Assembly (NCBI RefSeq): GCF_017654485.1
Contig: NZ_CP061091.1
Location: 1,749,501-1,813,500, forward strand
Direction of reading: 5' to 3'
From: Roseomonas marmotae
GTDB lineage: Bacteria > Pseudomonadota > Alphaproteobacteria > Acetobacterales > Acetobacteraceae
DNA length: 64,000 bases
The translations under genes were made by a program, and so were the position numbers. Each line of letters opens with the position of its first letter. Within the stretch, counting starts at the first letter, position 1. Under the pieces are notes generated by a model, which saw nothing but the letters and a program-made list of their open reading frames with translations, was not told where the DNA came from and ran no database searches. Shown piece after piece: positions 7,192 through 22,219 of this stretch.

Positions 7192-8412
7192 ATGACTGAC
7201 AGTGACGAAACGGGCTCGGGCCGCGCCCAGCCCATGGCGGTAAGCACCAGCCGCCGTACCGCCGGTACGCGCAAGGCCAGCACGGCAGGCCGCAAGCCCG
7301 CCGCCAAGAAGGCTGCCGCCCCGGCCAAGAAGGCATCGACCGCCACGCGCAAGCCGGCGGCGAAGAAGACGGCCACGGCGACGCCGAAGAAGGCGGCTTC
7401 GGGCGCGGCGCGCAAGCCGGCCTCGACCCGCGCGACGGCGGCCAAGAAGACGACGGCGAAGAAGACGGCCACGGCGGCGCCGAAGAAGGCGGCGGCGAGC
7501 ACGGCGCGCAAGTCGGCTTCGACCCGCACGACGGCGGCGAAGAAGACGGCGGCGCCGAAGAAGGCGGCGGCGAGCACGGCGCGCAAGTCGGCTTCGACCC
7601 GCGCGACGGCGGCGAAGAAGACGGCGGCGCCGAAGAAGGCGGCGGCGAGCACGGCGCGCAAGTCGACCTCGACCCGCACGACGGCGGCGAAGAAGACGGC
7701 GGCGCCGAAGAAGGCGGCGGCGAGCACGGCGCGCAAGTCGGCTTCGACCCGCGCGACGGCGGCGAAGAAGACGGCGGCGCCGAAGAAGGCGGCGGCGAGC
7801 ACGGCGCGCAAGTCGACCTCGACCCGCGCGACGGCGACCAAGAAGACGGCGGCGACGGCGAGGAAGACGGCCACGGCGGCGCCGAAGAAGGCGGCGTCCG
7901 GCACGGCGCGCAAGTCGGCCTCGACCCGCACGACGGCGGCGAAGAAGACGGCAGCGGCGCCGAAGAAGGCGGCGTCCGGCACGGCGCGCAAGTCGGCCTC
8001 GACCCGCGCGACGACGGCGAAGAAGACGGCCACGGCGACGCCGAAGAAGGCGGCGTCGGGCACGACCCGCAAGCCCGCTTCCACCCGCAAGGCACCGGCG
8101 GCCAAGGCCGCGTCGGCGACGAAGCGCCCGGCTGGCGCGGCCCGCAAGTCGGCCACGACGCGCCGCGCCACCAAGGCTGTCACGCCGATCCCCGCCGAGA
8201 TGCCGATCGAGGCCGTGGCGGAAATGGCGGCGCCGACTGCGACCAATGGTTCCGCCAAGCGCTCGGGCGGAGCCCGGAAGGCGTCCGGCGCCCGGTCGCG
8301 CGACAAGGCCGAGGTGGCGCCCCCGCCGCCGGTGGATCTGCCGCTGGACAGTGCTTCCACGACGGAGACGGATACTGATACCAGCACGACGGAAGACATG
8401 AGCGGCGACTGA
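7192..8412 (+). CDS. histone H1-like Lys/Ala-rich DNA-binding protein with tandem repeats
   Basis: 406 residues. After about 15 polar residues almost the whole protein (about 20-325) is low-complexity Ala/Lys/Thr/Ser/Arg with recurring AAKK, TARKSASTR and PKKAAAS blocks, like the AlgP/H1-like proteins of bacteria. It ends in an acidic, Thr-rich tail (TETDTDTSTTEDMSGD). Such proteins bind DNA non-specifically and compact the nucleoid. Repeat unit is 25 residues (26 in the later copies). Strong AAGGAG before the ATG and a textbook terminator after the stop argue for a highly expressed single gene. Copy number probably varies between strains through slippage or recombination. Confidence 0.85.
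   Translation: MTDSDETGSGRAQPMAVSTSRRTAGTRKASTAGRKPAAKKAAAPAKKASTATRKPAAKKTATATPKKAASGAARKPASTRATAAKKTTAKKTATAAPKKAAASTARKSASTRTTAAKKTAAPKKAAASTARKSASTRATAAKKTAAPKKAAASTARKSTSTRTTAAKKTAAPKKAAASTARKSASTRATAAKKTAAPKKAAASTARKSTSTRATATKKTAATARKTATAAPKKAASGTARKSASTRTTAAKKTAAAPKKAASGTARKSASTRATTAKKTATATPKKAASGTTRKPASTRKAPAAKAASATKRPAGAARKSATTRRATKAVTPIPAEMPIEAVAEMAAPTATNGSAKRSGGARKASGARSRDKAEVAPPPPVDLPLDSASTTETDTDTSTTEDMSGD
7501..8060 (+). repeat. in-frame 75/78-bp tandem repeats inside the H1-like gene
   Basis: The block starting ACGGCGCGCAAGTCG recurs at 7501, 7576, 7651, 7726 and 7801 (exact 75-bp period), then at 7903 and 7981 (78-bp period). Copies at 7501-7650 and 7651-7800 are nearly identical as 150-bp pairs, alternating ACG/GCG and GCTTCG/ACCTCG variants, so the array probably grew by duplicating a two-unit block. 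All copies keep the reading frame. Confidence 0.92.
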
Positions 8413-8545: not shown

Positions 8546-9535
8546 ATGAGCGAGAATCTTCGGCGCGTCCTTTACCTCAGCTACGCACCGGACAAGGTCT
8601 ATGCCTTGTGGCGCGCCCGCATGCCGGATGGCTGCGAGCTGATGACTCTCTCATCCAACGACGATGCGGAGCGGCTGGAGAAGCTCGCCATCGCCGACGC
8701 CGTGATCGTCGCCCCCGCCGTGCTGAAACCCGAATGGGTTCCCCTGGCGCCGCGCCTAAGGCTGGTGCAGCACCAGGGCGTGGGCTGGGAAGGGGAGACG
8801 CCGATCGCTGCCCTGCGGGAACGCGGCATCCGCCTGGCCATCAATCCCCTCGGGACGCCCGAGGTGGTCAGTGAGCATGCGCTGTCCCTGATCTTCGCCT
8901 GCCTGCGGCACATCCCGCGCGCCGATGCCGCCATGCGCCGCGGTGAATGGCTGGGCACGGCCATCCGCCCGATCTCGCGCAACCTGCGCGGCCGCACGGT
9001 AGGCATCGTCGGCATGGGGCGCATCGGCTCGGCCGTCGCGGCGCTGCTGCAGCCTTTCGGCGTTCGCGGGCTTTATACTGACCCGGCAGTACAGTTGCCG
9101 GAAGGATTGGAACTGGCGCTGGGCTTCCGGCGCGTGCCGCTGGATGTGCTGCTGCGGGAATCCGATGTCGTCACGCTGCACCTGCCGGCGACACCCGCCA
9201 CGCATCACCTGATTAACGATAACACCCTGGCGACCATGAAGCCGGAAGCCGTGCTGGTGAACTGCGCGCGCGGCGCCGTGGTGGACGAGGCCGCGCTGGC
9301 CCGGGCCCTGAGCAACGGCACCATCCGCGCCGCCGGCATCGATGTCTTCGAGCCCGAGCCGCCCCTGCCCGACAATCCGCTGCTGAAGCTGGACAATGCC
9401 GTACTGACGCCGCATATCGCCGCCGGCACGCTGGATGCGATGATGGCCAAGGTGGAAGGCGCTACGGCCAATCTTGGCCGCTTCTTCCGTGATGGCTCAC
9501 TCGAGAACGAAATCGACCTTACCAAACTACCATGA
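8546..9535 (+). CDS. D-2-hydroxyacid dehydrogenase (NAD(P)-dependent)
   Basis: 329 residues of the D-isomer-specific 2-hydroxyacid dehydrogenase family. The Rossmann motif is in GRTVGIVGMGRIGSA. The catalytic Arg lies in VNCARGAVVD, the Glu in DVFEPEPPLPDNPL and the His in TPHIAAGT. It reduces a 2-keto acid or oxidises the 2-hydroxy acid; glyoxylate/hydroxypyruvate reductase is a common assignment for this subgroup, but the substrate is not fixed by motifs. ATG at 8546 was preferred to 8540 because GGGAGA lies 7 bp upstream of it. The stop overlaps the next start by ATGA, so it is translationally coupled to the GNAT. Confidence 0.9.
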   Translation: MSENLRRVLYLSYAPDKVYALWRARMPDGCELMTLSSNDDAERLEKLAIADAVIVAPAVLKPEWVPLAPRLRLVQHQGVGWEGETPIAALRERGIRLAINPLGTPEVVSEHALSLIFACLRHIPRADAAMRRGEWLGTAIRPISRNLRGRTVGIVGMGRIGSAVAALLQPFGVRGLYTDPAVQLPEGLELALGFRRVPLDVLLRESDVVTLHLPATPATHHLINDNTLATMKPEAVLVNCARGAVVDEAALARALSNGTIRAAGIDVFEPEPPLPDNPLLKLDNAVLTPHIAAGTLDAMMAKVEGATANLGRFFRDGSLENEIDLTKLP

Positions 9536-9993
9536 TCATCCGTTCACTACCCCCTGGCGCGCGTGCGCCGCTGGGCCCTCTCCTGGATGCCTATGCGGCA
9601 GAGATGCGCGGCGTCCTGACCGGCGATGCCGCGCTGGCACCCGGCGCCGCCCTGGCCATGCTGGAGCAGGACGCGCGCACCGAGGTCCTCTGCGCCTTCG
9701 AGGGTGAGGAGCCGATGGGTTTCGCGCTGTTCTTCGACCTGCCCGAGGTCGTCTTCGCCCGCCGCTGCGGCCAGCTCGACGACCTGTTCGTGCGGCGGGA
9801 GGCACGCGGGAAGGGTATCGCGCGGCGGATGATCGGTGAGATCACCGCGCTGGGCCGGGCGCGGGGATGGACGCATCTGCGCTGGTTCGTCCCGCCCGAG
9901 GACCATGCGGCGCTGGCACTCTACCAGCGCATCGCCGAGGAGCCGGGCTGGCGCAGCTTCATTCTTCGTCTGGATCCCGCGGCGTCTCTGTAG
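9532..9993 (+). CDS. GNAT-family N-acetyltransferase
   Basis: 153 residues with the acetyl-CoA pyrophosphate-binding loop RREARGKGIARRMI (about residues 87-100) after a beta-strand LDDLFV, as in the GNAT fold. Substrate unknown. It starts inside the stop of the dehydrogenase gene (ATGA overlap). Its last 35 bp overlap the 3' end of a convergent GNAT gene on the other strand. Confidence 0.85.
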   Translation: MIIRSLPPGARAPLGPLLDAYAAEMRGVLTGDAALAPGAALAMLEQDARTEVLCAFEGEEPMGFALFFDLPEVVFARRCGQLDDLFVRREARGKGIARRMIGEITALGRARGWTHLRWFVPPEDHAALALYQRIAEEPGWRSFILRLDPAASL

Positions 9994-10450
9994 GGCGGTT
10001 GCGGCGGAGGTTGCGGACGAAGCGCGTCGCGGTGTCGGAGAAGCCCTGGGCACGGTAGAAGCCATGCGCCTCCTGCCGCTGCGTGCCGGCTGTCAGTTCC
10101 AGGACGTCGCAGCCGGCCTGCCGCGCTGCCTGGGCGCCGGCCTTCAGCAGCATGCGGCCGATGCCCCGGCCGCGTTCCTGCTCATCCACCACCAGGGCGG
10201 TGATGCGCGCCACCGGGTGCCGCTCCTGCGGCATGGGGGTCCAGTGCAGGGCGATGAAGCCCACCACGGGGCCGTAGTCGGTGGCGACGAGCAGGCTGCC
10301 CTGGCTGTCCCGCAGCAGCGTCGCAAGCCGCTCCGTGGCCTCCTGCGGCGATGTGGGATAGCCGAGCTGCCCGAGCAGCCGCGCCAGATCCGCCGCATCG
10401 GCCGGCACCGCGCCGCGGAGTTCGACACCGCGACGCGGGTTCCAGGCCAT
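9959..10450 (-). CDS. GNAT-family N-acetyltransferase
   Basis: 163 residues. The acetyl-CoA loop is VVDEQERGRGIGRMLL, followed by GCDVLELTAGTQRQEAHGFYRAQGF, a typical GNAT C-terminal half. The ATG at 10450 shares its first base with the stop of mgsA (TGATG), so it is coupled to that gene; the longer open frame is not used. It is the last gene of the long minus-strand run starting at queA. Substrate unknown. It resembles free amino acid or small-molecule acetyltransferases rather than RimI, but this is a weak guess. Confidence 0.85.
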   Translation of the reverse strand: MAWNPRRGVELRGAVPADAADLARLLGQLGYPTSPQEATERLATLLRDSQGSLLVATDYGPVVGFIALHWTPMPQERHPVARITALVVDEQERGRGIGRMLLKAGAQAARQAGCDVLELTAGTQRQEAHGFYRAQGFSDTATRFVRNLRRNRPTETPRDPDEE

Positions 10451-10830
10451 CAGCGCGCCAGCAGCCCGCCAGCGACCAGCAGATCGGCCGTGGCCGGGTT
10501 GAAGGCGCAAGGCACGTCATAGACGAGGGCGATGCGGAGCAGGGCCTTGACGTCCACGTCATGCGCCTGCGGCGCCAGCGGGTCGGGGAAGAAGATCAGC
10601 GCCTGCACCCGGCCCTCGGCGATCATGCCGCCGATCTGCTGATCGCCGCCCAACGGGCCGCTCTTGACCGTGGCGACGGCGAGGTCCGGATTGCGCTCGC
10701 GCAGCACGCCGCCGGTGGTGGCCGTGCAGACCAGGTTGTGCGGCGCCAGCTCCCGCCTGTGGCGCGCGGCCCATTCGGCCAGGGCCGGCTTCATTCGGTC
10801 ATGCGCCACCAGGGCGATGGTCAGGGTCAT
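10450..10830 (-). CDS. mgsA: methylglyoxal synthase
   Basis: 126 residues, close to the E. coli enzyme through the core. IALVAHD contains His10, SGPLGGDQQIG contains the catalytic Asp63, and FFPDPLAPQAHDVDVKALLR carries Asp83 and His90. It converts dihydroxyacetone phosphate to methylglyoxal and phosphate, a bypass that relieves sugar-phosphate stress. It lacks the N- and C-terminal extensions of the E. coli protein. It sits 30 bp downstream of otnK and is coupled to a GNAT. Pairing with a four-carbon sugar acid kinase suggests a link to triose-phosphate supply, which is inference. Confidence 0.95.
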   Translation of the reverse strand: MTLTIALVAHDRMKPALAEWAARHRRELAPHNLVCTATTGGVLRERNPDLAVATVKSGPLGGDQQIGGMIAEGRVQALIFFPDPLAPQAHDVDVKALLRIALVYDVPCAFNPATADLLVAGGLLAR

Positions 10831-10860
10831 GCCTTCTCCTTCATCCGGCGGAATGTGCCG

Positions 10861-12126
10861 CTACGGTTGAAAGGCTTTCAGGAAGAAGTCCCGAGCGCCG
10901 AAATTGCCGGATTTCAGGGCCAGATGCAGCCCCGCCGGCTCGGCATAGGTCCAGGGCACGCCAGGGTCGATCTGCGGCCCTATCCGCAGGCTGGTGATGC
11001 CCAGGCGCTGCACCACCGCGCCCGAGGTCTCGCCACCCGCGATCACCAACTGGCCCACGCCCTGCGCCACCAGATCGGTGGCGATCCGCGAGAGGGCTTC
11101 CTCCACCAGCGCGCCGGCCGCCTCCCGTCCCAGCTTGTCCTGCAGGGCCCGCACCTTGTCCGGTGGGGCGGAGGCGGCGATCACCACCGGCCGCTCTGTC
11201 GAAAGCCTGTCCCGCACCCAGTCGCGCGCCAGCGCCGCCAGGGCGGAGGCATCGGGCGTGGCCAGCGCATCCAGCTCCAGCACCGGCACATGGTCCCGCG
11301 CCAGCCCGATCTGCCCCAGCGTGGCGCGGGAGCAGGAGCCGGCGATCACCGCCATGCTGCCGCGCGCCTCCGGCAGTTCATCGGCATCGTCGCGCTCGGG
11401 CAACAGGCCCTGGGCGCGGAAATTCTCCGGCAGCCCCATGGCGATGCCGGAACCGCCGGTGATCAGCGCATGTTCGGCGCAGGCGGCGCCGATCGCCAGC
11501 AGGTGCTCGTCCGTCACCGCATCCGTGATGGCGTAGCGGCGGCCGGAGTCGCGCAGGCGGTGGAACTCGCGCCGGATGGCGGCCTCGCCCGCATCGACAG
11601 CAGCGAAGGGCACCAGCCCCACCCCGCCATCCGTCTGACGGGAGAGGACGCGGACCAGATTGGCGTCGCGCATCGGCGTCAGCGGGTGGTTCTCCATACC
11701 GCTCTCGTTCAGAAGCCGGTCGCCGACGAAGAGATGCCCCTGGAAGATGCTGCGCCCATTGGCGGGGAAGGCGGGGCAGGCGATGGCGAAGCCGGATTGC
11801 AGCCGCCGCATCAGCGCATCGGCCACCGGGCCGATATTGCCTTCATCCGTGCTGTCGAAGGTGGAGCAGTATTTGAAGAAGATCTGCCGCGCCCCCGCGC
11901 CCAGCAGCGCCTCGCAGGCGGTCAGGCTCTCGGCCACCGCCTGCTGCACCGGAGCGGTGCGCGACTTCAGCGCCACCACCACCGCATCCGCCTGCGGCAG
12001 CGGGCCCTGCGGCACCCCGATCACCTGCACCGTGGCCATGCCATGGGCCACCAGCATGGCGGCGAGGTCGGTCGCGCCCGTGAAGTCATCGGCGATACAG
12101 CCGAGGATGAGCCCCTGGTGGGACAT
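10861..12126 (-). CDS. otnK: 3-oxo-tetronate / four-carbon acid sugar kinase
   Basis: 421 residues of the DUF1537 kinase family. The N-terminal signature GCIADDFTGATDLA and the C-terminal GGETSGAVVQRLG nucleotide-binding segment are present, at the family's normal length. OtnK phosphorylates 3-oxo-tetronate, which OtnC decarboxylates to dihydroxyacetone phosphate. The usual partners (otnC, otnI, PdxA2, denD) are absent here. Instead it is 18 bp after a methyltransferase and 30 bp before mgsA, which consumes dihydroxyacetone phosphate. Substrate stereochemistry (threonate or erythronate derivative) is not readable. Confidence 0.85.
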   Translation of the reverse strand: MSHQGLILGCIADDFTGATDLAAMLVAHGMATVQVIGVPQGPLPQADAVVVALKSRTAPVQQAVAESLTACEALLGAGARQIFFKYCSTFDSTDEGNIGPVADALMRRLQSGFAIACPAFPANGRSIFQGHLFVGDRLLNESGMENHPLTPMRDANLVRVLSRQTDGGVGLVPFAAVDAGEAAIRREFHRLRDSGRRYAITDAVTDEHLLAIGAACAEHALITGGSGIAMGLPENFRAQGLLPERDDADELPEARGSMAVIAGSCSRATLGQIGLARDHVPVLELDALATPDASALAALARDWVRDRLSTERPVVIAASAPPDKVRALQDKLGREAAGALVEEALSRIATDLVAQGVGQLVIAGGETSGAVVQRLGITSLRIGPQIDPGVPWTYAEPAGLHLALKSGNFGARDFFLKAFQP

Positions 12127-12144
12127 GATCGTTCCCTCGCGTCC

Positions 12145-13038
12145 TTAGTTGATGACCCGCGCGGTCTTCTTCAGCGCAGGTGGCAAAGCCAGCAGATCGG
12201 TATGCCCGACCCGCGCCGCCAGGGCCCCGCGCGCCGCCTGCAACTGCCGCGCGCGGTTCCAGGCCTCGATACGCGGCGCCAGGACGCGGGGCAGGGCGCG
12301 GAGGGCGGCTTGCGCGTGCCCGTCGGCCAGGGCTTCCCCCATGGCCGGCATGGAGGCGGAAATGCGCCAGGGGCTGGGCGCGGCGGTGACGGAGAAGCCC
12401 TGGGCGCGGAAGAGGCGGGCCATCACGCCCGGCGCATCCGGCCCCAGGGCGAGGCCGCCGAAGCCCTTGTCCCGCTGCTGGTCCTGGCGGAAGCCGCGGG
12501 CGACCAGCCGGTCCTCCGGATGCGGGGGAAAGAAGCCCTCGCGCCCGTCGACGTTCAGCGCGGCATAGAAGGGCACGCGCAGCGCCGCCGCCATCCGCGC
12601 CACCCAGGGGCGGGAGACGAGGTCGCAGAGCGCGGTGCTGACCACGCCATCCGTCTGGTCCAGCTTCAGATTCCCGGGCGCCTCCGCAAGGTCGGCCAGC
12701 TGCGCTTCCACCCGCCAGACGCCGACGGGCGTATGCACGAGCATGATGCGCGGTTTCGGCAGCATGACGGTCCAGCCGACCCGTTCGGCGGCCTCGGCGA
12801 TCTCGTCGAAGGCGCGGTCCAGCAGCGCGGCATCGGAATCCACCAGCGTCCAGATCTGCGTGCGGCCGATATAGGGCGCGAGCCAGCGGAACAGCGAACC
12901 CGTGCCGGCGCCCAGGTCGATGATGCGCGGCCGCACCGGCAGCGCGTCGGCCAGCAGCAGCGCCAGGGGGACGGAACGCGCGCGGGCGTCATAGGGCTCG
13001 CGCAGTTGCAGCCAGTCGGCGTCGAAGCCCTCGCTCAT
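12145..13038 (-). CDS. class I SAM-dependent methyltransferase
   Basis: 297 residues. Motif I is IIDLGAGTGSLFRWLAP (about residues 36-52), followed by the acidic TLVDSD that would bind the SAM ribose. The rest does not match any methyltransferase family I can name. The ATG at 13038 overlaps the glycosyltransferase stop by four bases. It is the last member of the tight RibD-MDR-PTPS-GT4-MT module, so the acceptor is probably the small heterocycle or glycoside that the module makes, not a protein or RNA. That substrate assignment is inference. Confidence 0.82.
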   Translation of the reverse strand: MSEGFDADWLQLREPYDARARSVPLALLLADALPVRPRIIDLGAGTGSLFRWLAPYIGRTQIWTLVDSDAALLDRAFDEIAEAAERVGWTVMLPKPRIMLVHTPVGVWRVEAQLADLAEAPGNLKLDQTDGVVSTALCDLVSRPWVARMAAALRVPFYAALNVDGREGFFPPHPEDRLVARGFRQDQQRDKGFGGLALGPDAPGVMARLFRAQGFSVTAAPSPWRISASMPAMGEALADGHAQAALRALPRVLAPRIEAWNRARQLQAARGALAARVGHTDLLALPPALKKTARVIN

Positions 13039-14078
13039 GCGCTGGCCGCCCCGATCTCCGCCAGGAAGGCCTGCGCCCGGTCGGGCCAGCGGGGCAGGGC
13101 CTGGCCGGCCTTCCAGGCTTCCTCGGCCATCTCGGCGCGCAGGGCCTTGTCGAAGATCGGCCGCCGCATGGCGCGGGAGAGGGAGGTAACGTCCCCCGGC
13201 GGCGCGATCACGCCAGCCGTCCTCGGCACCACATCGGCGATGGCGCCGCCGGCGGTGATGGCCACCGGCAGGCCGCGCGCCAGCGCCTCGGCCGCCGCCA
13301 TGCCATAGCCTTCCCAATAGGTGGCGAGGGCGAAGAGGTCGGCGGAGGCATAGAGCTTCTCCAGCTCCCCATCCACGACCTCGCCCGCGAAGGTGACGCG
13401 GCTGGCGATCTGCAATTCCTCCGCCAGCGCCACCAGCGTCTGGGCATGCACGGGGTCGCGCGGGCCACCCGCGATGGTCAGGTGCCAGTCGAGATCCGTG
13501 AGCCTCGCCAGCGCGCGCAGCAGCACGTCATGCCCCTTGCGTGGCACGATCACGCCGACTGACAGGATGGCGCAGCCGGGCCCGCCGGACCCTTTTGCGC
13601 GCGGCGCCGGATCGGTGCCGGGCTCGACCACGCCGATCCTGGCGGCATCGACAGGGAATTCCAGCGGCAGCCGCTCGGCGGTGAGGCGGGAGGTCGCGAC
13701 CAGCCGCGCCATGCGCGGGAAGAGCAGGCTCTCCAGCTCCTTCAGCCGCGTGCGGTCGGCATCGGGCAGACCGGGCTCGATGGCGGTGGGGTGATGGATC
13801 AGCCCGATGGCGCGGCGCTGCTCCAGTTCCGCCAGGAAGGGCGCGAAGGCAGGCAGGCCGAGGCCGTCGATGATGATGCGGGTATCGGCGGAAACGCGGT
13901 CCAGCGCCGCGCGGGCCGAGGTTTTGGCGGCGTCGTCCGGCAGCGGATGGCGGCCATCCAGCTCCACTACCTCCACCTCATGGCCGGCAGCGCGGAAGCC
14001 TTCCACCAGCCGGCGGTCATAGCCGTAGCCGCCGGAGACGATGCTGAACGGTCCGGGGACCAGCAGCGCGACCTTCAT
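13035..14078 (-). CDS. family 4 glycosyltransferase (GT-B fold)
   Basis: 347 residues with the two-domain GT4 layout. The N-terminal glycine-rich VPGPFSIVSGGYGYDRRLVE leads to a linker, then the nucleotide-sugar domain with SVGVIVPRKGHDVLLRAL and the E-x7-E motif in EGYGMAAAEALARGLP. It transfers a sugar from an NDP-sugar to an unknown acceptor. Its start shares one base with the PTPS stop (TGATG), and its end overlaps the methyltransferase start. Such coupling to a pterin-synthase paralogue points to a small-molecule acceptor rather than a polysaccharide; no other polysaccharide genes are adjacent. Confidence 0.88.
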   Translation of the reverse strand: MKVALLVPGPFSIVSGGYGYDRRLVEGFRAAGHEVEVVELDGRHPLPDDAAKTSARAALDRVSADTRIIIDGLGLPAFAPFLAELEQRRAIGLIHHPTAIEPGLPDADRTRLKELESLLFPRMARLVATSRLTAERLPLEFPVDAARIGVVEPGTDPAPRAKGSGGPGCAILSVGVIVPRKGHDVLLRALARLTDLDWHLTIAGGPRDPVHAQTLVALAEELQIASRVTFAGEVVDGELEKLYASADLFALATYWEGYGMAAAEALARGLPVAITAGGAIADVVPRTAGVIAPPGDVTSLSRAMRRPIFDKALRAEMAEEAWKAGQALPRWPDRAQAFLAEIGAASA

Positions 14079-14476
14079 CAGGGCGCGGCCTCATAGGCCG
14101 CCCAGGCCAGCGGGCTTTCCCGCAGCAGCACCTTGATCATCTGCACCGACTTCGCGCCCTCTCCGAACCGACCCTCGCGGATGGCCTCCGCCAGCTTGCC
14201 GTGGATGTAGCTGCAGAGGAATTCGGTGCTGGTATTCTGTCCGGCGAATTCAGGCAATGTGTCGAGGTTGTTGTAGTCGATCGCGTCGAGGATCTTCCGC
14301 AACTCCACGCGGGCGGCGGCGATGTCGATCAGCAGGTTGAGCCGGTCCAGCCTCGGCGCGCGGAACTCGGCCTCCACCACGAAGGTCGCGCCGTGCACGC
14401 GCTGGGCCGGGCCGAATTCCTCGCCCTTGAAGCTATGCGCGACCATGATGTGGTCGGCGACGGTCAGGCTGTACAT
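14078..14476 (-). CDS. divergent 6-pyruvoyl-tetrahydropterin synthase / QueD-family paralogue
   Basis: 132 residues of the PTPS (T-fold) family. It keeps His14 (VAHSF), His28 (RVHGATF), Asp51, the NTSTEF helix and Glu120 (LLRES). The third zinc His of the canonical HGH is Ala30. The catalytic Cys upstream of HGH in QueD and PTPS is absent (EEFGPAQRVHG), and the family DHxxLN is IDYNNLD. It therefore looks neither like QueD nor a standard PTPS. His9 could replace the lost zinc ligand. Canonical relatives act on 7,8-dihydroneopterin triphosphate. It sits between an MDR dehydrogenase (25 bp upstream) and a GT4 transferase (1-base overlap). A substitute for QueD seems unlikely. Confidence 0.88.
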   Translation of the reverse strand: MYSLTVADHIMVAHSFKGEEFGPAQRVHGATFVVEAEFRAPRLDRLNLLIDIAAARVELRKILDAIDYNNLDTLPEFAGQNTSTEFLCSYIHGKLAEAIREGRFGEGAKSVQMIKVLLRESPLAWAAYEAAP

Positions 14477-14501
14477 GCGGCCTCTCTTTCAGTTCCGGGA
14501 T

Positions 14502-15461
14502 TCAGTAGGTGATGACGGGGCAGAGCGGCGCAACCTCTCCCGCCGCGGCGGGGCCGAGGAGATCCGCGTAGCGCGCCGGCAGCTCCTCGAAGCGGATGGC
14601 CGGGCCGCAGAGCGCATCCAGCTCCGGCTCCGCCAGCAGGGAGAGGGCAAGGGCCATCCGCTCCGCATAGCTGCGGCGGACGCGCATGGCGGGTGCGACG
14701 GCGCCGACCTGGCTGGAGATCAGCCGCAGCCGCTTCGCGTGGAAGGCCTCACCCAGCGGCAGGCAGACCTCCTTGTCGCCGTACCAGGAGGCTTCGACGA
14801 TGCGCGCCTCGAATGCCGCCAGGGCCAGCGCCTGCCGCAGCCCGGCGGGATTGGCGGAAGCGTGGATGATCAGTTCCTGCTCGCCTGGCGCATCCTCCGG
14901 CGAGGCGAAGCGCAGGCCGAGTTGCCGTGCCACCGCCACCCGCGCCGGGTCGCTGTCCACCAGCGTCACGGCCATGCCGGGGACGCGGGAAAGCAGCCAG
15001 GCCGCCAGCAGCCCCACCACCCCCGCGCCGATCACCAGCGCGCGTTCCCCGGCCAGGGGGCGCGCATCCCAGTTGATGTTCAGCGCCGTCTCCATATTGG
15101 CGGCGAGGACGGCGCGCCGGCTGGGCACCGCATCGGGGATGGGGATGCACATCGACTTCGGCGCCAGGAAGAGATCCTGGTGTGGATGCAGGCAGAAGAC
15201 ACGCTGCCCGTCCTCCAGCCGGCCTGCCGCCGCGTAGCCGTATTTCACGGGGAAGGGGAAATCCCCGGCCTGCAGGGGCGCGCGCATGACGGGCCACTGG
15301 CTTTCCGGCACATGGCCGTGCAGCACCAGCCGTTCCGTCCCGCGCGAGATGCCGCTGGCCTCGGCGCGCACCAGCGCCTGCCCTTCGGCGGGAGGGGGCA
15401 GGATCTCCTCGCGGATCTCGCCCTGACCGGGGGCGGTGATCCAGAAGGCGCGGGCCCGCAT
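14502..15461 (-). CDS. zinc-free medium-chain dehydrogenase/reductase (BchC-like)
   Basis: 319 residues of the MDR superfamily. The nucleotide-binding motif is ALVIGAGVVGLLAAWLL, followed by VDSDPARV with acidic Asp suggesting NAD(H). Where zinc alcohol dehydrogenases have catalytic Cys and GHE, this protein has ASGISRGTE and KYGYAAAG, so the zinc ligands are missing. The ISRGTE segment recalls chlorophyllide dehydrogenase BchC and related small-molecule dehydrogenases. The start codon shares a base with the RibD-like stop (TGATG), and a PTPS paralogue follows 25 bp later. A dehydrogenase acting on the module's own product is the simplest reading. Confidence 0.85.
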   Translation of the reverse strand: MRARAFWITAPGQGEIREEILPPPAEGQALVRAEASGISRGTERLVLHGHVPESQWPVMRAPLQAGDFPFPVKYGYAAAGRLEDGQRVFCLHPHQDLFLAPKSMCIPIPDAVPSRRAVLAANMETALNINWDARPLAGERALVIGAGVVGLLAAWLLSRVPGMAVTLVDSDPARVAVARQLGLRFASPEDAPGEQELIIHASANPAGLRQALALAAFEARIVEASWYGDKEVCLPLGEAFHAKRLRLISSQVGAVAPAMRVRRSYAERMALALSLLAEPELDALCGPAIRFEELPARYADLLGPAAAGEVAPLCPVITY

Positions 15462-16258
15462 CAGCCGCCCTCGCAGACGGCGGGGCGGGCACGGTGCAGG
15501 GCGATGTCGAAGAGCACGTCATCGCCCAGGCTGTGGACGCCCCAGGTGAAGCGCAGCCCGTCGGCGATGCGCGCGGCCTCCGGCAGGGTGAAGGCGGGGA
15601 TGCCGGAGCCCAGCAGCACCGGCGCCACCGTCACATGCAGCCGGTCCAGGCACCCCGCCGCCAGGAAGCGGGAGACGGTGAGGCCGCCGCCCTCCACGAA
15701 GATGCGGGTCAGCCCGCGCGCCGCCAGGGCCCGCAGCAGGCTGGGCAGGTGCGGGCCGCCGATGGGCGCGCGGGGCAGGCGCAGCACCTCGGCCGCGCCA
15801 TGGGCCTCGCCGCCGCCGGCATCCTCAGCGCAGGCCAGGATGGTGGGCGGGCCGCCGGGGGCGAAGATGCCGTAATCGGTGCCGAGGCGGCGGTCGGTAT
15901 CCAGCACCACCCGCACCGGGCTGGGCCCCGGGCATTCGCGCGTCGTCAGGCGGGGATTGTCGTGCCGGACGGTGCCGGCGCCCACCACCACGGCGTGGCT
16001 GAGGGCGCGCAGCCGATGGGTATGCAGGATATCGCCCTTGCCGCCGATCCACTGGCTGGAGCCGGAGGCGGTGGCGATGCGGCCATCCAGCGTCTGGGCC
16101 AGGCGGCCCAGCACCACGCAGCCATCCGCCGCCCCGGAGCCGGCGAGGACCGGCGCGAAAAGATTGCCCAGCGCGTCACTCGGGGCAGTCAGGCCAGGAT
16201 TGTCCCGCAGGGCGAGCAGCGCGGGCCAGGAGGAATAGGCGTCTTCCGGAGCGTCCAT
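15461..16258 (-). CDS. RibD C-terminal-domain (dihydrofolate reductase-like) reductase
   Basis: 265 residues. The N-terminal 45 residues are unlike RibD deaminase; from about residue 46 it is a RibD_C/DHFR-fold reductase (GRLAQTLDGRIATASGSSQW, HAVVVGAGTVRHDNPRLTTR, VEGGGLTVSRFLAAGCLDRL). RibD_C domains use NADPH to reduce pyrimidine or pterin-like substrates. Standing alone beside a PTPS paralogue, it probably reduces a pteridine or ring-opened pyrimidine intermediate rather than making riboflavin. It is the first gene of the five-gene module, 37 bp after the queuosine-precursor transporter on the same strand. Confidence 0.87.
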   Translation of the reverse strand: MDAPEDAYSSWPALLALRDNPGLTAPSDALGNLFAPVLAGSGAADGCVVLGRLAQTLDGRIATASGSSQWIGGKGDILHTHRLRALSHAVVVGAGTVRHDNPRLTTRECPGPSPVRVVLDTDRRLGTDYGIFAPGGPPTILACAEDAGGGEAHGAAEVLRLPRAPIGGPHLPSLLRALAARGLTRIFVEGGGLTVSRFLAAGCLDRLHVTVAPVLLGSGIPAFTLPEAARIADGLRFTWGVHSLGDDVLFDIALHRARPAVCEGG

Positions 16259-16295
16259 CAGCGGGAGCCTAGCGCCTGGCCGGCCCCCTTGGAAA

Positions 16296-16853
16296 TCAAG
16301 CCGGCAGGATGCCCCGGCGTTCGTCCGCGCGGCGGAGCCAGGAGACCAGCGGCAGGGCCAGCAGCACCATCCAGAGCTTGCCCAGTACCTGGCCGGACAG
16401 GAAGGAGAGGTCCCCGAAAGCGATGAACAGGAAGGCGATGCTGTCCACCACCAGCCCCGCCAAGCCTGAGGCCAGCACCGCCAGCACCAGGTTGCGCCTT
16501 TGCAGCGGGGTATAGACGGCGAGGTCCACGGTTTCGCTGATCAGGAAGGCGGCGGCGGAGGCCAGCACCAGGGAAGGCGGCGCCAGGAAGGCGGAGAGGA
16601 TGGTGCCGCCGAGGATGGCGATCCAGGCGAAGCCCAGGCCCAGCCGCCGCTGCACCAGGTCCCGCAGCACCAGCGCGAGGCCGATCATCAGCACGCCGGA
16701 GGGCGCCATGACACCCGGCGCCACCGGGATCAGGCAGGGACCCTCCGGGGTGCAGACCGTGCCGGCATGGCCGATCAGCCAGTTCGCCGCTGGAATGGTG
16801 AGCCCGAAGGCGATGAGGGCGGCGAAGCCCTCCAGGCGGCGGGTATCGGTCAT
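16296..16853 (-). CDS. VUT/YhhQ-family transporter, probable queuosine precursor importer
   Basis: 185 residues, about five to six hydrophobic segments. It carries the family pattern GLALVLRDLVQRRLG, FLISETVDLAVYTPLQRR and GLAGLVVDSIAFLFIAFG typical of the Vut_1/QPTR family. Characterised members (YhhQ/QPTR) import queuosine precursors such as preQ0 or preQ1 across the inner membrane. ATG at 16853 lies 64 bp after the queC stop, and the open frame upstream overlaps queC. Position directly after queC supports the queuosine role. The same transporter could serve the pterin-like module that follows 37 bp later. Confidence 0.82.
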   Translation of the reverse strand: MTDTRRLEGFAALIAFGLTIPAANWLIGHAGTVCTPEGPCLIPVAPGVMAPSGVLMIGLALVLRDLVQRRLGLGFAWIAILGGTILSAFLAPPSLVLASAAAFLISETVDLAVYTPLQRRNLVLAVLASGLAGLVVDSIAFLFIAFGDLSFLSGQVLGKLWMVLLALPLVSWLRRADERRGILPA

Positions 16854-16917
16854 CTGCGAGTTTTCCCAGAACGGGGCGGGTGCATCCGCGTGTTGCCGCG
16901 CGGCGAACCCCCGCGCG
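16854..16917 (-). promoter_or_regulatory. structured leader between queC and the transporter gene (possible regulatory RNA)
   Basis: Read on the minus strand, the gap holds a CCGCG/CGCGG hairpin with loop CGGCAACA. It is enclosed by GGGGGTTCG on one side and ATGCACCCGCCCCG on the other, followed by GGGAAAACTCG just before the ATG. GGTTC, CACCC and an A-rich tail recall preQ1-I aptamers, but the inner hairpin and loop lengths do not fit that consensus. It may only be a stabilising hairpin inside the operon. Low confidence as a riboswitch. Confidence 0.2.
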
Positions 16918-17616
16918 TCAGGTGCAGGCTCGATACTCCCGATAGCCCTTCGCGCGCAACTCGCAGGCGGGGCAGGTACCGCATCCATAGCCCCAGGGGT
17001 GCCTCTGCGTACGGTCGCCCAGGTAGCAGGTATGGGTATCCTCGATGATGGAGTCGACCAGCGCGGTGCCGCCCAGCCGCTCCGCCAGCCGCCAGGTTTC
17101 CGCCTTGTCGATCCACATCAGCGGCGTGTGGAGGACGAAACGCTGCTCCATGCCGAGGTTCAGCGCCACCTGAAGCGCCTTGATGGCGTCGTCCCGGCAA
17201 TCGGGATAGCCGGAGAAATCCGTCTCGCAGACGCCGGTGACGATGTGGCGCAGCCCGCGCCGATAGGCCAGGGCGGCCGCGAAGGTCAGGAAGATCAGGT
17301 TGCGGCCGGGCACGAAAGTATTGGGCAGCCCGTTTTCCTGCATGGCGATCTCCGTCTGCCGCGTCAGGGCGGTATCGGAAACGGCGGCCAGCGCATCGAG
17401 CTTGAGCGTATGGTCCTCGCCCAGCTTCGGTGCCCAGTGCGGAAAGCGCGAGGCGACGTCCTCGCGGAAGGCAGCGCGGCATTCCAGCTCCACCTTGTGG
17501 CGCTGGCCGTAGTCGAAGCCCATGGTTTCGACATGGGAAAACTGCTCCAACGCCCAGGCCAGGCAGGTGGCGGAATCCTGTCCGCCGCTGAACAGCACCA
17601 GCGCGCCGTCACTCAT
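16918..17616 (-). CDS. queC: 7-cyano-7-deazaguanine synthase
   Basis: 232 residues. The ATP-pyrophosphatase loop is FSGGQDS (Ser10-Ser15), and the zinc site is the C-terminal HTC ... [13 protein letters not shown] four-Cys cluster. QueC converts 7-carboxy-7-deazaguanine, ATP and ammonia to preQ0. ATG at 17616 overlaps the queG stop by four bases; the longer frame is not used. It is the fifth gene of queA-tgt-queF-queG-queC. The genes for earlier steps (queD, queE, folE) are not in the window. Confidence 0.97.
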
Positions 17617-18659
17617 TCTCTTGTCTCCAGTCTCGCCACGGCCCAGCGCGCGGCATCGGCCACCACTTCGGCAGGGTCTTCGCACAATCCGGCCGCCAAC
17701 TCCCGCAGGGCGGGGATGCCGGAATTGCCGATGGCGATCAGCACGTTTCGCACGAAGCGGTCCCGCCCGATGCGCTTGACCGGAGAGCCGCTGAACAGCG
17801 CGCGGAAGGCTGCGTCATCCAGCACCGCCAGCTCCGCCAGGCGCGGCGCGGTCAGGTCCTCCCGCGCGATCAGCCCAGGTTCGCGGCCAGCCTGCGCGAA
17901 CTTGTTCCAGGGGCAGACGGAGAGGCAGTCGTCGCAGCCATAGATGCGGTTGCCCATCTTCGCCCGGAATTCCTCGGGGATCGGGCCTTTGTGCTCGATG
18001 GTCAGGTAGCTGATGCAGCGCCGGGCATCGAGCCGGTAGGGGCCGACGAAGGCATCGGTCGGGCAGGCGCGCAGGCAGCGCGTGCATTTGCCGCAATGGT
18101 CCACCTCCGCCCCATCGGGCGAGAGGTCGAGTGTGGTGTAGATCTCGCCCAGGAAGAGCCAGGAGCCGAATTCGCGGGAGACGAGGTTGCTGTGCTTGCC
18201 CTGCCAGCCCAGCCCGGCCTGCTGCGCCAGAGGCTTCTCGGCCACCGGCGCGGTATCGACGAAGACCTTTATCTGTTGCTCGCGCCACTGATCCATCATC
18301 CAGCGGCCCAGCACCTTCAGCCGCTTCTTGACGATGTCGTGGTAGTCCTTGTGGCGGGCATAGACGCTGATGCCGCCACGGTCAGGCTGGGCCAGGATGG
18401 AAAGCGGGTCTTCCTCCGGCCCGTAATTCATGCCGAGCACGACGACGGACACCGCCTCGGGCCACAGCGCCTGCGGATGCGCGCGCTGTTCGGCACGGTC
18501 GGCCAGCCATCCCATCTCGCCCTGCATGCCGGCGGCCAGGAATTCATCCAGCCGCGCCCGCACTTCCGGCCCCAGATGCGCGGGCGCGAAGCCCACGGCA
18601 TCGAAGCCGATCTCCAGCGCTTTCGCGCGGATCAGAGCAGTTGTGTCAGCCGCGGCCAC
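17613..18659 (-). CDS. queG: epoxyqueuosine reductase
   Basis: 348 residues from a GTG start that overlaps queF by 14 bp with AGGA upstream; no in-frame ATG near the N-terminus fits. The family core begins at [20 protein letters not shown]. Two [4Fe-4S] motifs are visible, [15 protein letters not shown] and [11 protein letters not shown], and a C-terminal HEAT-like segment ends the protein. QueG is a cobalamin-dependent enzyme that reduces epoxyqueuosine to queuosine in tRNA. The alternative enzyme QueH is not needed here. An internal position in the que operon supports the call. Confidence 0.95.
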
Positions 18660-19110
18660 GGTAGTTGGGCACGTCCTGCGGCGGAATCCATACGCCGGCC
18701 GGTGCCTCGCCCGTCTGCCAGAAGACATCGATCGGGATGCCGCCGCGCGGATACCAGTAGCCGCCGATCCGCAGCCAGACCGGAGAGAGCGTTTCCGCCA
18801 GCCGCTGGCCGATGCCCACCGTGCAGGCCTCATGGAAGGCGCCGTGGTTGCGGAAGGAGGTCAGGTAGAGCTTGAGGCTCTTGCTCTCCACCAGCCAATC
18901 GCCCGGCACGTAGTCGATCATCAGATGCGCGAAGTCGGGCTGGCCGGTGATGGGGCAGAGCGAGGTGAACTCGGGCGCCGTGAAGCGCACGCAGTAGCGG
19001 CTGCTGGGATGCGGGTTGGGCACGCGCTCCAGCACCGCTTCCTCGGGGCTGTTGGGCTGCTGCGTGTTCTGGCCCAGCATGGTCAGGCCAGAGACATCAT
19101 GGCTGCTCAT
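18646..19110 (-). CDS. queF: NADPH-dependent preQ0 reductase (short, unimodular QueF)
   Basis: 154 residues, the short QueF type. The catalytic Cys52 lies in [12 protein letters not shown] with Asp59. The substrate-binding [16 protein letters not shown] and Glu94 in FHEAC are present. It reduces the nitrile of preQ0 to the amine of preQ1. ATG at 19110 overlaps the tgt stop by four bases (ATGA), and its own 3' end overlaps the queG GTG start. Confidence 0.97.
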
Positions 19111-20231
19111 GCGGCGGTCTCCTGTGCGGTGGTCCAGCCGGCCTGGATGATCTCCGCCTCCTGGGCGAAGCGGCCGGCGACGATGGCGCTGCGCAGCCGC
19201 GCCATCAGGGTCTGGTAGTAGCGGATATTGTGCCAGGTCAGCAGCATCGGCCCGAGCATCTCGCCCGCCTTGAACAGGTGCAGCAGATAGCCGCGCGAAT
19301 GCCGGGTGCAAGCGGGGCAGTCGCATTCCGGGTCCAGCGGGCCGGTATCCTCGGCATGCCTGGCGTTGCGGATGTTCAGCACGCCCCGGCTGGTATAGGC
19401 GCGGCCTGTGCGGCCGGAGCGCGTGGGGATGACGCAATCGAACATGTCCACACCACGCGCCACGGCGCCGATCAGGTCGGATGGCGTGCCGACGCCCATC
19501 AGGTAGCGGGGATGCGTCTCCGGCAGCATGTCCGCGCAGAAATCGAGGGTGCGGAACATTTCCTCCTGCCCCTCGCCAACCGCCAGGCCACCGATGGCAT
19601 AGCCCTCGAAGCCGATCTGCGTCAGCGCCTTGCTGCTTTCCGCGCGCAGATCCTCGAAGGTGCTGCCCTGCTGAATGCCGAAAAGACCATAACCCTCGCG
19701 CGGCGTGAAGGCAGCGCGGGAGCGGGCGGCCCAGTCCATGGAGAGCCGCATGGCGCGCGCCGCTTCCGTATGCACCGCCGGGTATTCGATGCATTCGTCG
19801 AAGCACATGGTGATGTCGGAATCCAGCAGGTGCTGGATCTCGATGCTGCGCTCCGGCGTCACGCGGAAGCGCTCGCCATTGATGTGGCTCTGGAAGGTGA
19901 CGCCGTCCTTGTCCAGCTTCCGCAGCTTGGAGAGGGACATCACCTGGAAGCCGCCGGAATCCGTCAGGATCGGGCCATGCCAGTCCATCATCCGGTGCAG
20001 CCCGCCCAGCCGGCCGACACGCTCCGCACCCGGGCGCAGCATCAGATGATAGGTATTGCCCAGCACGATCCGGGCGCCAGTGGAGCGCACGGCATCGGCC
20101 GTCATGCCCTTCACGGTGCCGGCGGTGCCGACAGGCATGAAGACAGGGGTGGGCACATCGCCATGCGCGGTATGCAGCATGCCGGCGCGGGCCTTGCCGT
20201 CATGGCACTGGCAGTTCCAGGAGAGCGTCAC
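19107..20231 (-). CDS. tgt: tRNA-guanine transglycosylase
   Basis: 374 residues from a GTG start that overlaps the queA stop (GTGA), the usual length for bacterial TGT. Key segments: [13 protein letters not shown], the base-recognition [12 protein letters not shown], the nucleophile in [12 protein letters not shown], and the zinc site [18 protein letters not shown]. It exchanges guanine-34 for preQ1 in tRNAs with GUN anticodons (Asp, Asn, His, Tyr). The open frame to 20591 lies inside queA and is not used. Confidence 0.97.
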
Positions 20232-21310
20232 TGGGCGGAATCCTCCCGGAAGAGCAGGCTGGCATCGCCATAGGAATAGAAGCGATAGCCGGCCGCGACG
20301 GCATGGGCATAGGCATCGCGCATCCGCGCGGTGCCGGAGAAGGCCGAGACGAGCATGAAGAGGCTCGATTTCGGCAGGTGGAAATTGGTCAGCAGCACAT
20401 CCGCCGAATGGAAGCGGTGGCCGGGCAGCAGGAAGATATCCGTCAGCCCGCGGAAGGGATGGATGACGCCCTGATCGTCCACCGCGCTTTCCAGCAGCCG
20501 CAATGCCGTGGTGCCGATGGCGACGATGCGCCCGCCGCGCGCGCGGGCGGCATTGATGGCGGCGGCGGCCTCTTCCGTGACCTCGCCCCATTCAGCGTGC
20601 AGCTTGTGCTCGCGCGGGTTGTCGCCACGGATGGGCAGGAAGGTGCCGGCGCCGACATGCAGCGTGACCTCGACCTGCGACACCCCGCGCGCTTCCAGCC
20701 CCGCCAGCAGCTCCGGCGTGAAATGCAGGCTGGCGGTGGGCGCCGCCACGGCGCCGGGCTGGCGCGCGAAGATGGGCTGGTAGTCTTCCCTGTCCTCAGG
20801 CCGGGGGCCGTCCGGCCGGGCGATATAGGGTGGCAGCGGGATCTCGCCGGCCTTCTCCAGCGCGGCGGCCAGCAGCGCTTGGTCCGGGCCGAAATCCAGC
20901 AGCACACCGCCGCCTTCCTGCTTCTCCAGCACGCGTGGCGCGAGCTCGGGGGCGCCTTCGATGGAGAGGATATCGCCCGGGCGCAGCTTCTTGGCACCGC
21001 GCACCAGGGCATGCCAGGTGCCGCCGGCCTCGGCGCGGTTCAGCATGATCTCGATCCGCGCCTTGCCCCGCCGGGCGCGCAGCCGGGCCGGGATGACGCG
21101 GGTGTCGTTCACCACCATCAGGTCGCCGGGCCGCAGCAGGGAGGGCAGCTCCCGCACGATCCGGTCCTCCGGTCCCTCGCCGCCCACCACCAGCAGCCGC
21201 GCGGAATCGCGCGGACGCGCCGGTTCCTGCGCGATCAGGGCCTCGGGCAGGGCGAAATCGAAATCCTCAGCCCGCAGGGCGGGCAGGGCAGGGGCATCGG
21301 TCTGGGTCAT
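20228..21310 (-). CDS. queA: S-adenosylmethionine:tRNA ribosyltransferase-isomerase
   Basis: 360 residues, full length. The N-terminus is family-like ([25 protein letters not shown]), with [16 protein letters not shown] and the C-terminal [15 protein letters not shown] and [18 protein letters not shown] signatures. It moves the ribosyl group of SAM onto preQ1 in tRNA, giving epoxyqueuosine. It is the first gene of the que operon; the 138 bp to the divergent SDR gene must hold the promoter, but I see no clear -35/-10. Confidence 0.97.
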
Positions 21311-21448
21311 GGGATTCGGCCGCGGTAGCGGAGGGGCGCGCGGAAGGCAAGCAGTGCCTGGGCAAGGCAGCCCTGCCCGTCGGCCCGGGCTTGCCGCGAA
21401 TCATCGCCCCGTGCAGCCTGCGCGGCAGTTTCGGGAAGGGAGAGAAAC

Positions 21449-22219
21449 ATGATCCGCTACGATCTGCGGGGCAGGCGCGCGCTGGTGACCGGCGGCGCAT
21501 CGGGCATCGGGCTGGCGACGGTGCGGATGCTGGCCGAGGCCGGTGCCCGCGTGGCGGTGAATCATCTGCCCGGTGATGCCCGCGCCGAAACGGCCCTGGT
21601 TGAGCTGCGGGCCGCCGGTCATGACGTGCTGGCGGCCCCAGGCAATGTCGGCGATGCCGTGGCCGGGCCGCGCATGGTGGAGCAGGCATTGGCCGGCCTC
21701 GGCGGGCTGGATTTCCTGGTCAACAATGCCGGCACCCCCGGCACTACCAGCCTGATTCCGCCGACGGCGCTGGAGTTGCTGACGGAGGAGCTGTGGCAGG
21801 CGGTGCTGCAGGTGAACCTGCTGGGCGTCTTCCGCTGCGCCAAGGCGGCGGCGCCGGCCCTGAAGGAAGCCGGCGGCGCGGTGGTGAACGTGGCCTCCAT
21901 CGCAGGCATCGACAGCCCCGGCAGCTCGATGGCCTATGGCGCCACCAAGGCGGGCGTCATCAGCCTGACCAAGAACCTGGCACGCGGCCTGGCGCCGGAT
22001 GTGCGGGTCAATGCCATCGCGCCCGGCGCGGTGGACAGCCCCTGGATGGTCGAATGGACCGAGGAGCGGCGCCAGGCCAGCGCCAGCAAGGCCTTGCTGA
22101 AGCGCCGCTGCCAGCCGGAGGATCTGGCCGAGGTCATCCTCTTCCTGCTGGCCGGCGCCCGCATGGTGACCGGCCAGACCCTGGTGGTGGATGGCGGACT
22201 GACGCTGGAGGCGCGGTAG
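21449..22219 (+). CDS. short-chain dehydrogenase/reductase
   Basis: 256 residues, classical SDR. Cofactor motif TGGASGIG near residue 14, NNAGT, the catalytic Ser in VASIAG and Tyr-x-x-x-Lys in YGATK are all present, and it closes with the usual QTLVVDGG near the C-terminus. Ribosome binding site AAGGGAG. Substrate unknown; 3-oxoacyl, sugar or steroid alcohols all fit the fold. It is divergent from queA and convergent with a RidA gene 4 bp away, so no operon partner suggests a job. Confidence 0.88.
   Translation: MIRYDLRGRRALVTGGASGIGLATVRMLAEAGARVAVNHLPGDARAETALVELRAAGHDVLAAPGNVGDAVAGPRMVEQALAGLGGLDFLVNNAGTPGTTSLIPPTALELLTEELWQAVLQVNLLGVFRCAKAAAPALKEAGGAVVNVASIAGIDSPGSSMAYGATKAGVISLTKNLARGLAPDVRVNAIAPGAVDSPWMVEWTEERRQASASKALLKRRCQPEDLAEVILFLLAGARMVTGQTLVVDGGLTLEAR

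Follow-up and report, generated by a model that had tools for sequence, protein, structure and literature searches.

A conserved gene set around a PTPS-IV paralog in Roseomonas marmotae and a proposed branch from riboflavin synthesis

Five co-directional genes around a PTPS-IV paralog

The window analyzed here is a stretch of 64,000 nucleotides of the Roseomonas marmotae genome (NZ_CP061091.1, positions 1,749,501 to 1,813,500), and its feature of interest is a cluster of five genes built around a paralog of 6-pyruvoyl tetrahydropterin synthase (PTPS). All five open reading frames (ORFs) lie on the minus strand. In the direction of reading, they encode a RibD_C-type reductase of 265 amino acids (aa) without a deaminase domain (positions 15461 to 16258; PF01872, 130.8 bits), an apparently zinc-less dehydrogenase of the medium-chain dehydrogenase/reductase (MDR) type (14502 to 15461, 319 aa), the PTPS paralog itself (14078 to 14476, 132 aa; PF01242 family, PTPS, 78.8 bits), a family 4 glycosyltransferase (GT4; 13035 to 14078, 347 aa; PF00534, 106.1 bits against a cut-off of 26.4), and a class I S-adenosylmethionine-dependent methyltransferase (12145 to 13038, 297 aa, with its start at 13038). 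The genes are tightly packed: RibD_C shares a single base with MDR at 15461 (TGATG), PTPS likewise shares one with GT4 at 14078 (TGATG), GT4 and the methyltransferase have in common an ATGA at 13035 to 13038, and a 25-bp gap separates MDR from PTPS. The families, positions, overlaps, and gap given in an initial annotation of this DNA were all confirmed.

Judged by its sequence, the PTPS paralog is a member of PTPS-IV, a named, functionally orphan subfamily (COG0720), and an ortholog of Streptomyces coelicolor SCO6650. With the family profile, the SCO6650 structure (3d7j) scored 207 bits, and the remaining PDB matches scored 37 bits or less. Across 26 sequences, F21, G22, P23, and A24 are invariant and Q25 is present in at least 90%, yielding the FGPAQ motif that section 19 of PMC5445326 describes as the PTPS-IV signature. 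That section places PF00925, which it terms “FolE2,” and PF01872 in the neighborhood, and it mentions no product, MDR, GT4, or methyltransferase. In the window, RibD_C is such a neighbor; PF00925, which is common in the family without being universal, is not linked, and both PF00925 genes of the genome lie elsewhere. The SCO6650 protein, according to its structure paper, reportedly binds no zinc, lacks PTPS activity, and has a pterin-like pocket.

PTPS-I and PTPS-II carry the signatures CxxxHGH and CxxxxxHGH, respectively (PMC5041015, section 7). PTPS-IV has the PF01242 fold and one His of the HGH motif in common with QueD and 6-pyruvoyltetrahydropterin synthase; unlike them, it has Ala at the Cys position (A24) and at the second His position (A30, turning HGH into HGA) in 26 of 26 sequences. 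H14, H28, D51, and E120 are strictly kept, the last presumably corresponding to the Glu with which other PTPS proteins bind the ring. The Escherichia coli QueD chain used in the alignment reads Ala opposite A24, where we take the wild-type protein to have Cys. The wild-type residue was read from the CxxxHGH signature in PMC5041015. The two substitutions leave unsupported the suggestion of the initial annotation that the paralog acts in the normal way on dihydroneopterin triphosphate, and the missing CxxxHGH argues that the protein is not a QueD.

The closest PDB chain to the window RibD_C protein is 6p8c, a 2,5-diamino-6-ribosylamino-4(3H)-pyrimidinone 5'-phosphate reductase (E = 2e-23), and we propose from this similarity that the window protein reduces the same compound. 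It scored 93.4 bits with the model of the archaeal-type ribosylaminopyrimidinone phosphate reductase (TIGR01508), short of the cut-off of 186.45, and 106.4 bits with the riboflavin RibD model (TIGR00326; cut-off, 156.35), which it matches in the reductase part only. A second, full-length riboflavin RibD is encoded elsewhere in the genome (L158; TIGR00326, 346.3 bits), and the role of riboflavin RibD was therefore set aside for the cluster protein.

Pfam matches of the MDR protein are weak, and its family was recognized from an AlphaFold model with a predicted local distance difference test (pLDDT) score of 91.8. The model matches MDR structures, the top ones being polyol-type dehydrogenases; the structure search gave a fold and no substrate. 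The BchC model TIGR01202 gave 49.6 bits and did not reach its cut-off of 291.25. At the positions that were assigned by eye, and not by superposing structures, to the catalytic zinc ligands (Cys, His, and Glu), S39 and Y76 are invariant and position 77 is variable in 38 sequences. We propose that the protein is an alditol (ribityl) dehydrogenase.

The methyltransferase was likewise recognized from its fold: its Pfam match to PF13649 reached 24.2 bits, under the cut-off of 27, and its AlphaFold model (pLDDT 95.1) matches class I methyltransferase structures, again in a search that gave no substrate. GT4 can be compared with an enzyme that glycosylates a pterin, the tetrahydrobiopterin glucosyltransferase 9v0l. 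The window protein matches it weakly in its C-terminal half (E = 2.4e-5, with no single stretch significant by itself), and 41 of the 46 PDB chains listed match better. Neither RibD_C nor MDR is known to accompany this enzyme or bacterial pterin glycosides.

Distribution and gene order

Among 289 sampled alphaproteobacterial genomes searched for PTPS-IV and MDR, 36 contain PTPS-IV orthologs with E values no higher than 6.5e-28; another two, which matched only at 7e-4, were left out. The strong matches to the MDR profile (at least 267 bits; next score, 60.6 bits) fall in the same 36 genomes, in a search that took the top 7 first-look candidates of each genome on to scoring and in which 50 of the 289 genomes match at an E value of 1e-10. 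In three of these 36 strong matches (G135, G236, and G186), the aligned region is interrupted by a single in-frame stop. Within the family of the window, PTPS-IV is present in 55 of 120 genomes. Sampling across the phylum, 22 of 299 genomes passed an E value of 1e-15, 19 with at least 176 bits and 3 with about 60 bits, the latter probably being other PTPS types; 6 of the 19 high-scoring genomes lie outside the class, and all 6 show MDR, GT4, and methyltransferase genes beside PTPS in a 3.4-kb locus. Finally, a scan of a species-genome collection confirmed at least 581 of at least 595 candidate stretches as PTPS-IV relatives, and the best 80 of these 581 or more include Roseomonas and its relatives, Streptomyces, Amycolatopsis, Actinomadura, and a Gemmatimonadales metagenome-assembled genome (MAG).

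Gene order was compared in 100 loci, namely the best 80 scan matches, which are biased to near relatives, and 20 hand-picked from the 36 alphaproteobacterial genomes. The loci were grouped by number on the basis of their record titles: 49 are Acetobacteraceae-like, 31 are from Actinomycetota/Gemmatimonadales, and 20 are from other alphaproteobacteria. A gene was scored as absent when tblastn gave no match at an E value of 1e-5 in the flanking sequence fetched, which for some loci is short. In 84 of the 100 loci (38/49, 27/31, and 19/20, respectively), MDR lies upstream of PTPS and both GT4 and the methyltransferase lie downstream, all on one strand; GT4 by itself follows PTPS in the majority of loci in each group. 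Because this same-strand order recurs so often, the association of the five genes is not due to chance. The cluster is conserved and widespread: the genes behave as one unit, as had been claimed from the window alone, and the set reaches well beyond close relatives, from Alphaproteobacteria to Actinomycetota and a Gemmatimonadales MAG.

Sixteen loci depart from this arrangement. In L076, the contig stops inside the cluster. Other loci are complete and have no detectable methyltransferase, for example, L044 and L052, where a 3-oxo-tetronate kinase (OtnK) gene directly follows GT4, so that methylation may be dispensable. Neither GT4 nor the methyltransferase was detected in L064; L069 and L075 have PTPS and GT4, and MDR and RibD_C were not found there; in L081 and L091, MDR is nearby on the opposite strand. 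RibD_C itself is present in 46 of 49 Acetobacteraceae-like loci, 16 of 20 loci from other alphaproteobacteria, and just 5 of 31 Actinomycetota/Gemmatimonadales loci.

An unpublished remark cited in PMC5041015 has it that (archaeal) PTPS-IV serves coenzyme F420 synthesis. CofH exceeds its cut-off in 7 of the 36 alphaproteobacterial genomes that bear the cluster (12 match at an E value of 0.001), as would fit such a role; against it, 29 of the 36 stay below the cut-off and the window genome has no CofH match at 0.001. An F420 function is thus disfavored in the window genome, and we consider it highly improbable for the cluster.

Additional genes and a possible route to a pterin

In the Actinomycetota/Gemmatimonadales loci, the set is larger. 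GTP cyclohydrolase II (GCHII) and a creatininase-family hydrolase are each present in 28 of 31 loci (representatives were checked by Pfam), and a CDP-alcohol phosphotransferase and a flippase-like LPG_synthase_TM protein are each present in all 31. Among the 20 loci from other alphaproteobacteria, 8 carry the CDP-alcohol phosphotransferase, 7 carry GCHII, and 5 carry the creatininase; the flippase-like family, searched with an actinobacterial query, was not found in alphaproteobacterial loci (0/20 in this group). Of the 39 loci that carry the phosphotransferase by similarity, 38 contain a CDP-alcohol signature somewhere in the locus, and the sequence of the cluster-type enzyme matched no PDB chain at an E value of 0.001. 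A sulfatase-family protein (PF00884; positions 3001 to 4665 of L120) recurs in 3 of the 20 loci from other alphaproteobacteria (L120, L126, and L132); all three also carry the CDP-alcohol phosphotransferase, and in L120 the two genes adjoin.

The window locus has the FGPAQ motif, an orthologous PTPS fold, and a RibD_C neighbor in common with the SCO6650 neighborhood (3d7j), which is AGeNNT cluster-node 62 in section 19 of PMC5445326. In contrast to SCO6650-type neighborhoods, it lacks linked genes for GCHII, a creatininase, a CDP-alcohol phosphotransferase, and a flippase-like protein, and it is a reduced alphaproteobacterial variant of the wider gene set. Elsewhere, unlinked to the cluster, the window genome encodes a single-function GCHII of the Tyr type (see below) and a RibBA-type protein, as well as two creatininases, neither of which reaches an NCBIfam cut-off. 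No convincing relative of the cluster-type CDP-alcohol phosphotransferase was found in this genome (best E = 0.0014, 26% identity).

The cyclohydrolases of the set differ at one residue in particular. Spoonamore et al. 2006 are said to have found in SCO6655 that GCHII goes no further than the formylated pyrimidine when Met replaces E. coli Tyr105. Placed by alignment to E. coli GCHII (2bz0), this position is Met in 20, His in 7, and Tyr in 8 of the 35 cluster cyclohydrolases in the 100 loci. The 20 with Met resemble SCO6655 in this residue; the GCHII of the window genome differs in being Tyr-type and unlinked. A creatininase occurs in the same locus with 27 of 27 non-Tyr (Met or His) cyclohydrolases compared with 2 of 8 Tyr-type ones; for example, the actinobacterial locus L093 has a Tyr-type cyclohydrolase and no creatininase. 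Such pairing would follow if both routes converged on one deformylated diaminopyrimidine, which is the classical substrate of a RibD_C reductase of archaeal type. The archaeal route to riboflavin uses the ArfB deformylase and a ribosylaminopyrimidinone phosphate reductase, and the likeness lies in the creatininase-family hydrolase of many other loci and in the reductase without a deaminase; the cluster differs from that route in its additional MDR, PTPS, GT4, and methyltransferase. Two points qualify this reading. The association between cyclohydrolase type and creatininase is confounded with phylogeny, and the creatininase of L081 scores better with the MftE and creatininase models than with ArfB (40.3; cut-off, 180), all scores being under the cut-offs. 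The association is therefore no proof of this reading.

We put the chance at about even that a widely distributed pathway, the PTPS-IV pathway, has these five genes as its core, branches off riboflavin synthesis, and leads to a pterin as follows. In the window genome and other alphaproteobacteria, a Tyr-type GCHII would open GTP to 2,5-diamino-6-ribosylamino-4(3H)-pyrimidinone 5'-phosphate in one step, whereas in Actinomycetota a formyl-retaining Met- or His-type GCHII followed by a creatininase-family deformylase would give the same diaminopyrimidine in two; we infer these activities of the cyclohydrolase types and the creatininase. RibD_C would then reduce the ribosyl to a ribityl chain without deamination, so that the 2-amino group is retained, and MDR would oxidize one of the ribityl hydroxyls, in the simplest case the one at C2'. 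PTPS-IV may bind the ring and aid closure of the 5-amino group on the resulting ketone, so that a dihydroneopterin-like pterin would form with no need for GTP cyclohydrolase I. GT4 would glycosylate and the methyltransferase would then methylate this compound. In Actinomycetota and some alphaproteobacteria, the CDP-alcohol phosphotransferase may attach the product as a lipid, which in Actinomycetota the flippase-like protein may move. We likewise infer every reaction from RibD_C on, as well as the identity of the product. The methylated, glycosylated pterin-like product proposed in the initial annotation remains the best guess, and the gene set probably draws off an early intermediate of vitamin B2 synthesis to make a pterin-like compound that carries a sugar.

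Two other accounts of the chemistry were considered. The first reaches the same kind of product by another entry: the substrate would be dihydroneopterin (tri)phosphate from GTP cyclohydrolase I, with PTPS-IV altering the side chain and RibD_C reducing dihydropterins in the manner of DmrA or Rv2671. Some relatives of RibD_C do act as dihydropterin or dihydrofolate reductases, the PDB matches of the window protein include Rv2671 entries, and no GCHII is linked to the cluster in the window genome. However, GCHII is the cyclohydrolase that was found next to the cluster (28/31 and 7/20 loci; GTP cyclohydrolase I was not searched for), and the creatininase in all 27 non-Tyr loci makes sense if a formyl group needs removal, so that we regard this entry as unlikely, if still to be reckoned with. 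Alternatively, the ring may never be closed, the product being a glycosylated ribitylamino-diaminopyrimidine, a lumazine, or another flavin-like compound that PTPS-IV only binds or isomerizes. The loss of Cys and the second His of CxxxHGH leaves room for such chemistry, but a PTPS fold that keeps H14, H28, D51, and E120 is easier to explain by a pterin-like ligand, and an unclosed ring appears rather unlikely to us.

Taken to its full extent, the PTPS-IV pathway would be a second pterin route in several phyla that is independent of GTP cyclohydrolase I: a detour of reduction by RibD_C and then oxidation by a zinc-less alditol dehydrogenase would replace the Amadori rearrangement, a PTPS that lost its catalytic site would close the ring, and in Actinomycetota the CDP-alcohol phosphotransferase would mount the glycosylated product on a phospholipid, yielding a pterin lipid that is then flipped to the other side of the membrane. 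This extended version is speculative, and we doubt that it holds in every part. A gene set kept from Roseomonas to Streptomyces probably makes something useful, and where the annotation reads “6-pyruvoyl tetrahydropterin synthase,” the proposal offers a specific pathway that can be tested and names the substrate with which it starts. It also provides a shared context for the orphan PTPS-IV family and the formyl-retaining Streptomyces cyclohydrolase.

The cluster is not categorically new, given that publications already cover its PTPS family, a crystal structure, and some of the neighborhood, and reportedly also one actinobacterial cyclohydrolase of the set, SCO6655. The initial annotation could match the genes to no described pathway, and this stands insofar as a literature search covering titles and the beginnings of abstracts, with most subscription journals outside its coverage, found no named product of the cluster. 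It needs amending insofar as the crystallized ortholog SCO6650, the PTPS-IV name, and the neighborhood of PF00925 and RibD_C have been published (PMC5445326, section 19). SCO6655 and SCO6652 also appear in expression tables of PMC2853524 and PMC3610822.

Queuosine genes and other neighbors

Upstream of the cluster, a run of queuosine genes, queC-queG-queF-tgt-queA, extends over positions 16918 to 21310, beginning with queC (16918 to 17613, minus strand; TIGR00364, 209.1 bits against a cut-off of 150.3). The PTPS paralog is the only PTPS match in the genome and lies near queC, and it could on these grounds supply the missing QueD step. However, besides lacking CxxxHGH, it scored 38.3 bits with the QueD model TIGR03367 (cut-off, 89.25), QueE has no match in the genome at an E value of 0.01 (one model, TIGR04508), and queC lies within the fetched flanks of only 2 of the 100 loci. 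A QueD role of this paralog in the window genome is very unlikely, and the set holds together well beyond que operons, which was the check proposed in the initial annotation. By sequence, the early queuosine steps look to be missing from the window genome, though QueC is kept. Between the cluster and queC lies a gene for a Vut_1 or queuosine-precursor-transporter-like membrane protein (16296 to 16988, minus strand; PF02592, 39.6 bits against a cut-off of 27.2; TIGR00697, 29.2 bits, under the cut-off of 50.95), which overlaps the end of queC. This protein could import a queuosine precursor downstream of the missing steps.

Past the methyltransferase, and unmentioned in the initial annotation of the module, the same-strand run continues with OtnK, which starts 18 bp downstream (10861 to 12126, minus strand; NF043035, 609.1 bits against a cut-off of 350), and then methylglyoxal synthase (10450 to 10830, minus strand; NF003559, 167.8 bits against a cut-off of 84). 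By similarity, OtnK occurs in 42 of the 49 Acetobacteraceae-like loci and in none of the remaining 51, and methylglyoxal synthase occurs in 7 of the 49. The 18-bp spacing made both genes candidate members of the pathway, and they were set aside since OtnK is confined to Acetobacteraceae-like loci. In one of these, L084, OtnK is followed by a class II aldolase that exceeds the cut-off for 3-oxo-tetronate 4-phosphate decarboxylase; this arrangement and the restricted distribution resemble a neighboring sugar-acid operon, and OtnK is probably a neighbor rather than part of the pathway. In L084 (5645 to 13407) and similar loci, the module sits between the flagellar P-ring gene FlgI and the pair of OtnK and decarboxylase; relatives of the L084 FlgI ORF occur in 30 other fetched loci and those of the decarboxylase ORF in 32. 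In the window, methylglyoxal synthase takes the place of the decarboxylase next to OtnK.

No sigma-70-like promoter was found in positions 10000 to 18000, where 2 terminator-like sites compare with a chance expectation of 2.1, and no Rfam family was found in 9500 to 22000. Elsewhere in the window, positions 7192 to 8412 hold an ORF of 406 aa that is rich in Lys and Ala and histone H1-like by eye, and within it, at 7471 to 7854, are 75-bp tandem units (5.1 copies, 96% matches).

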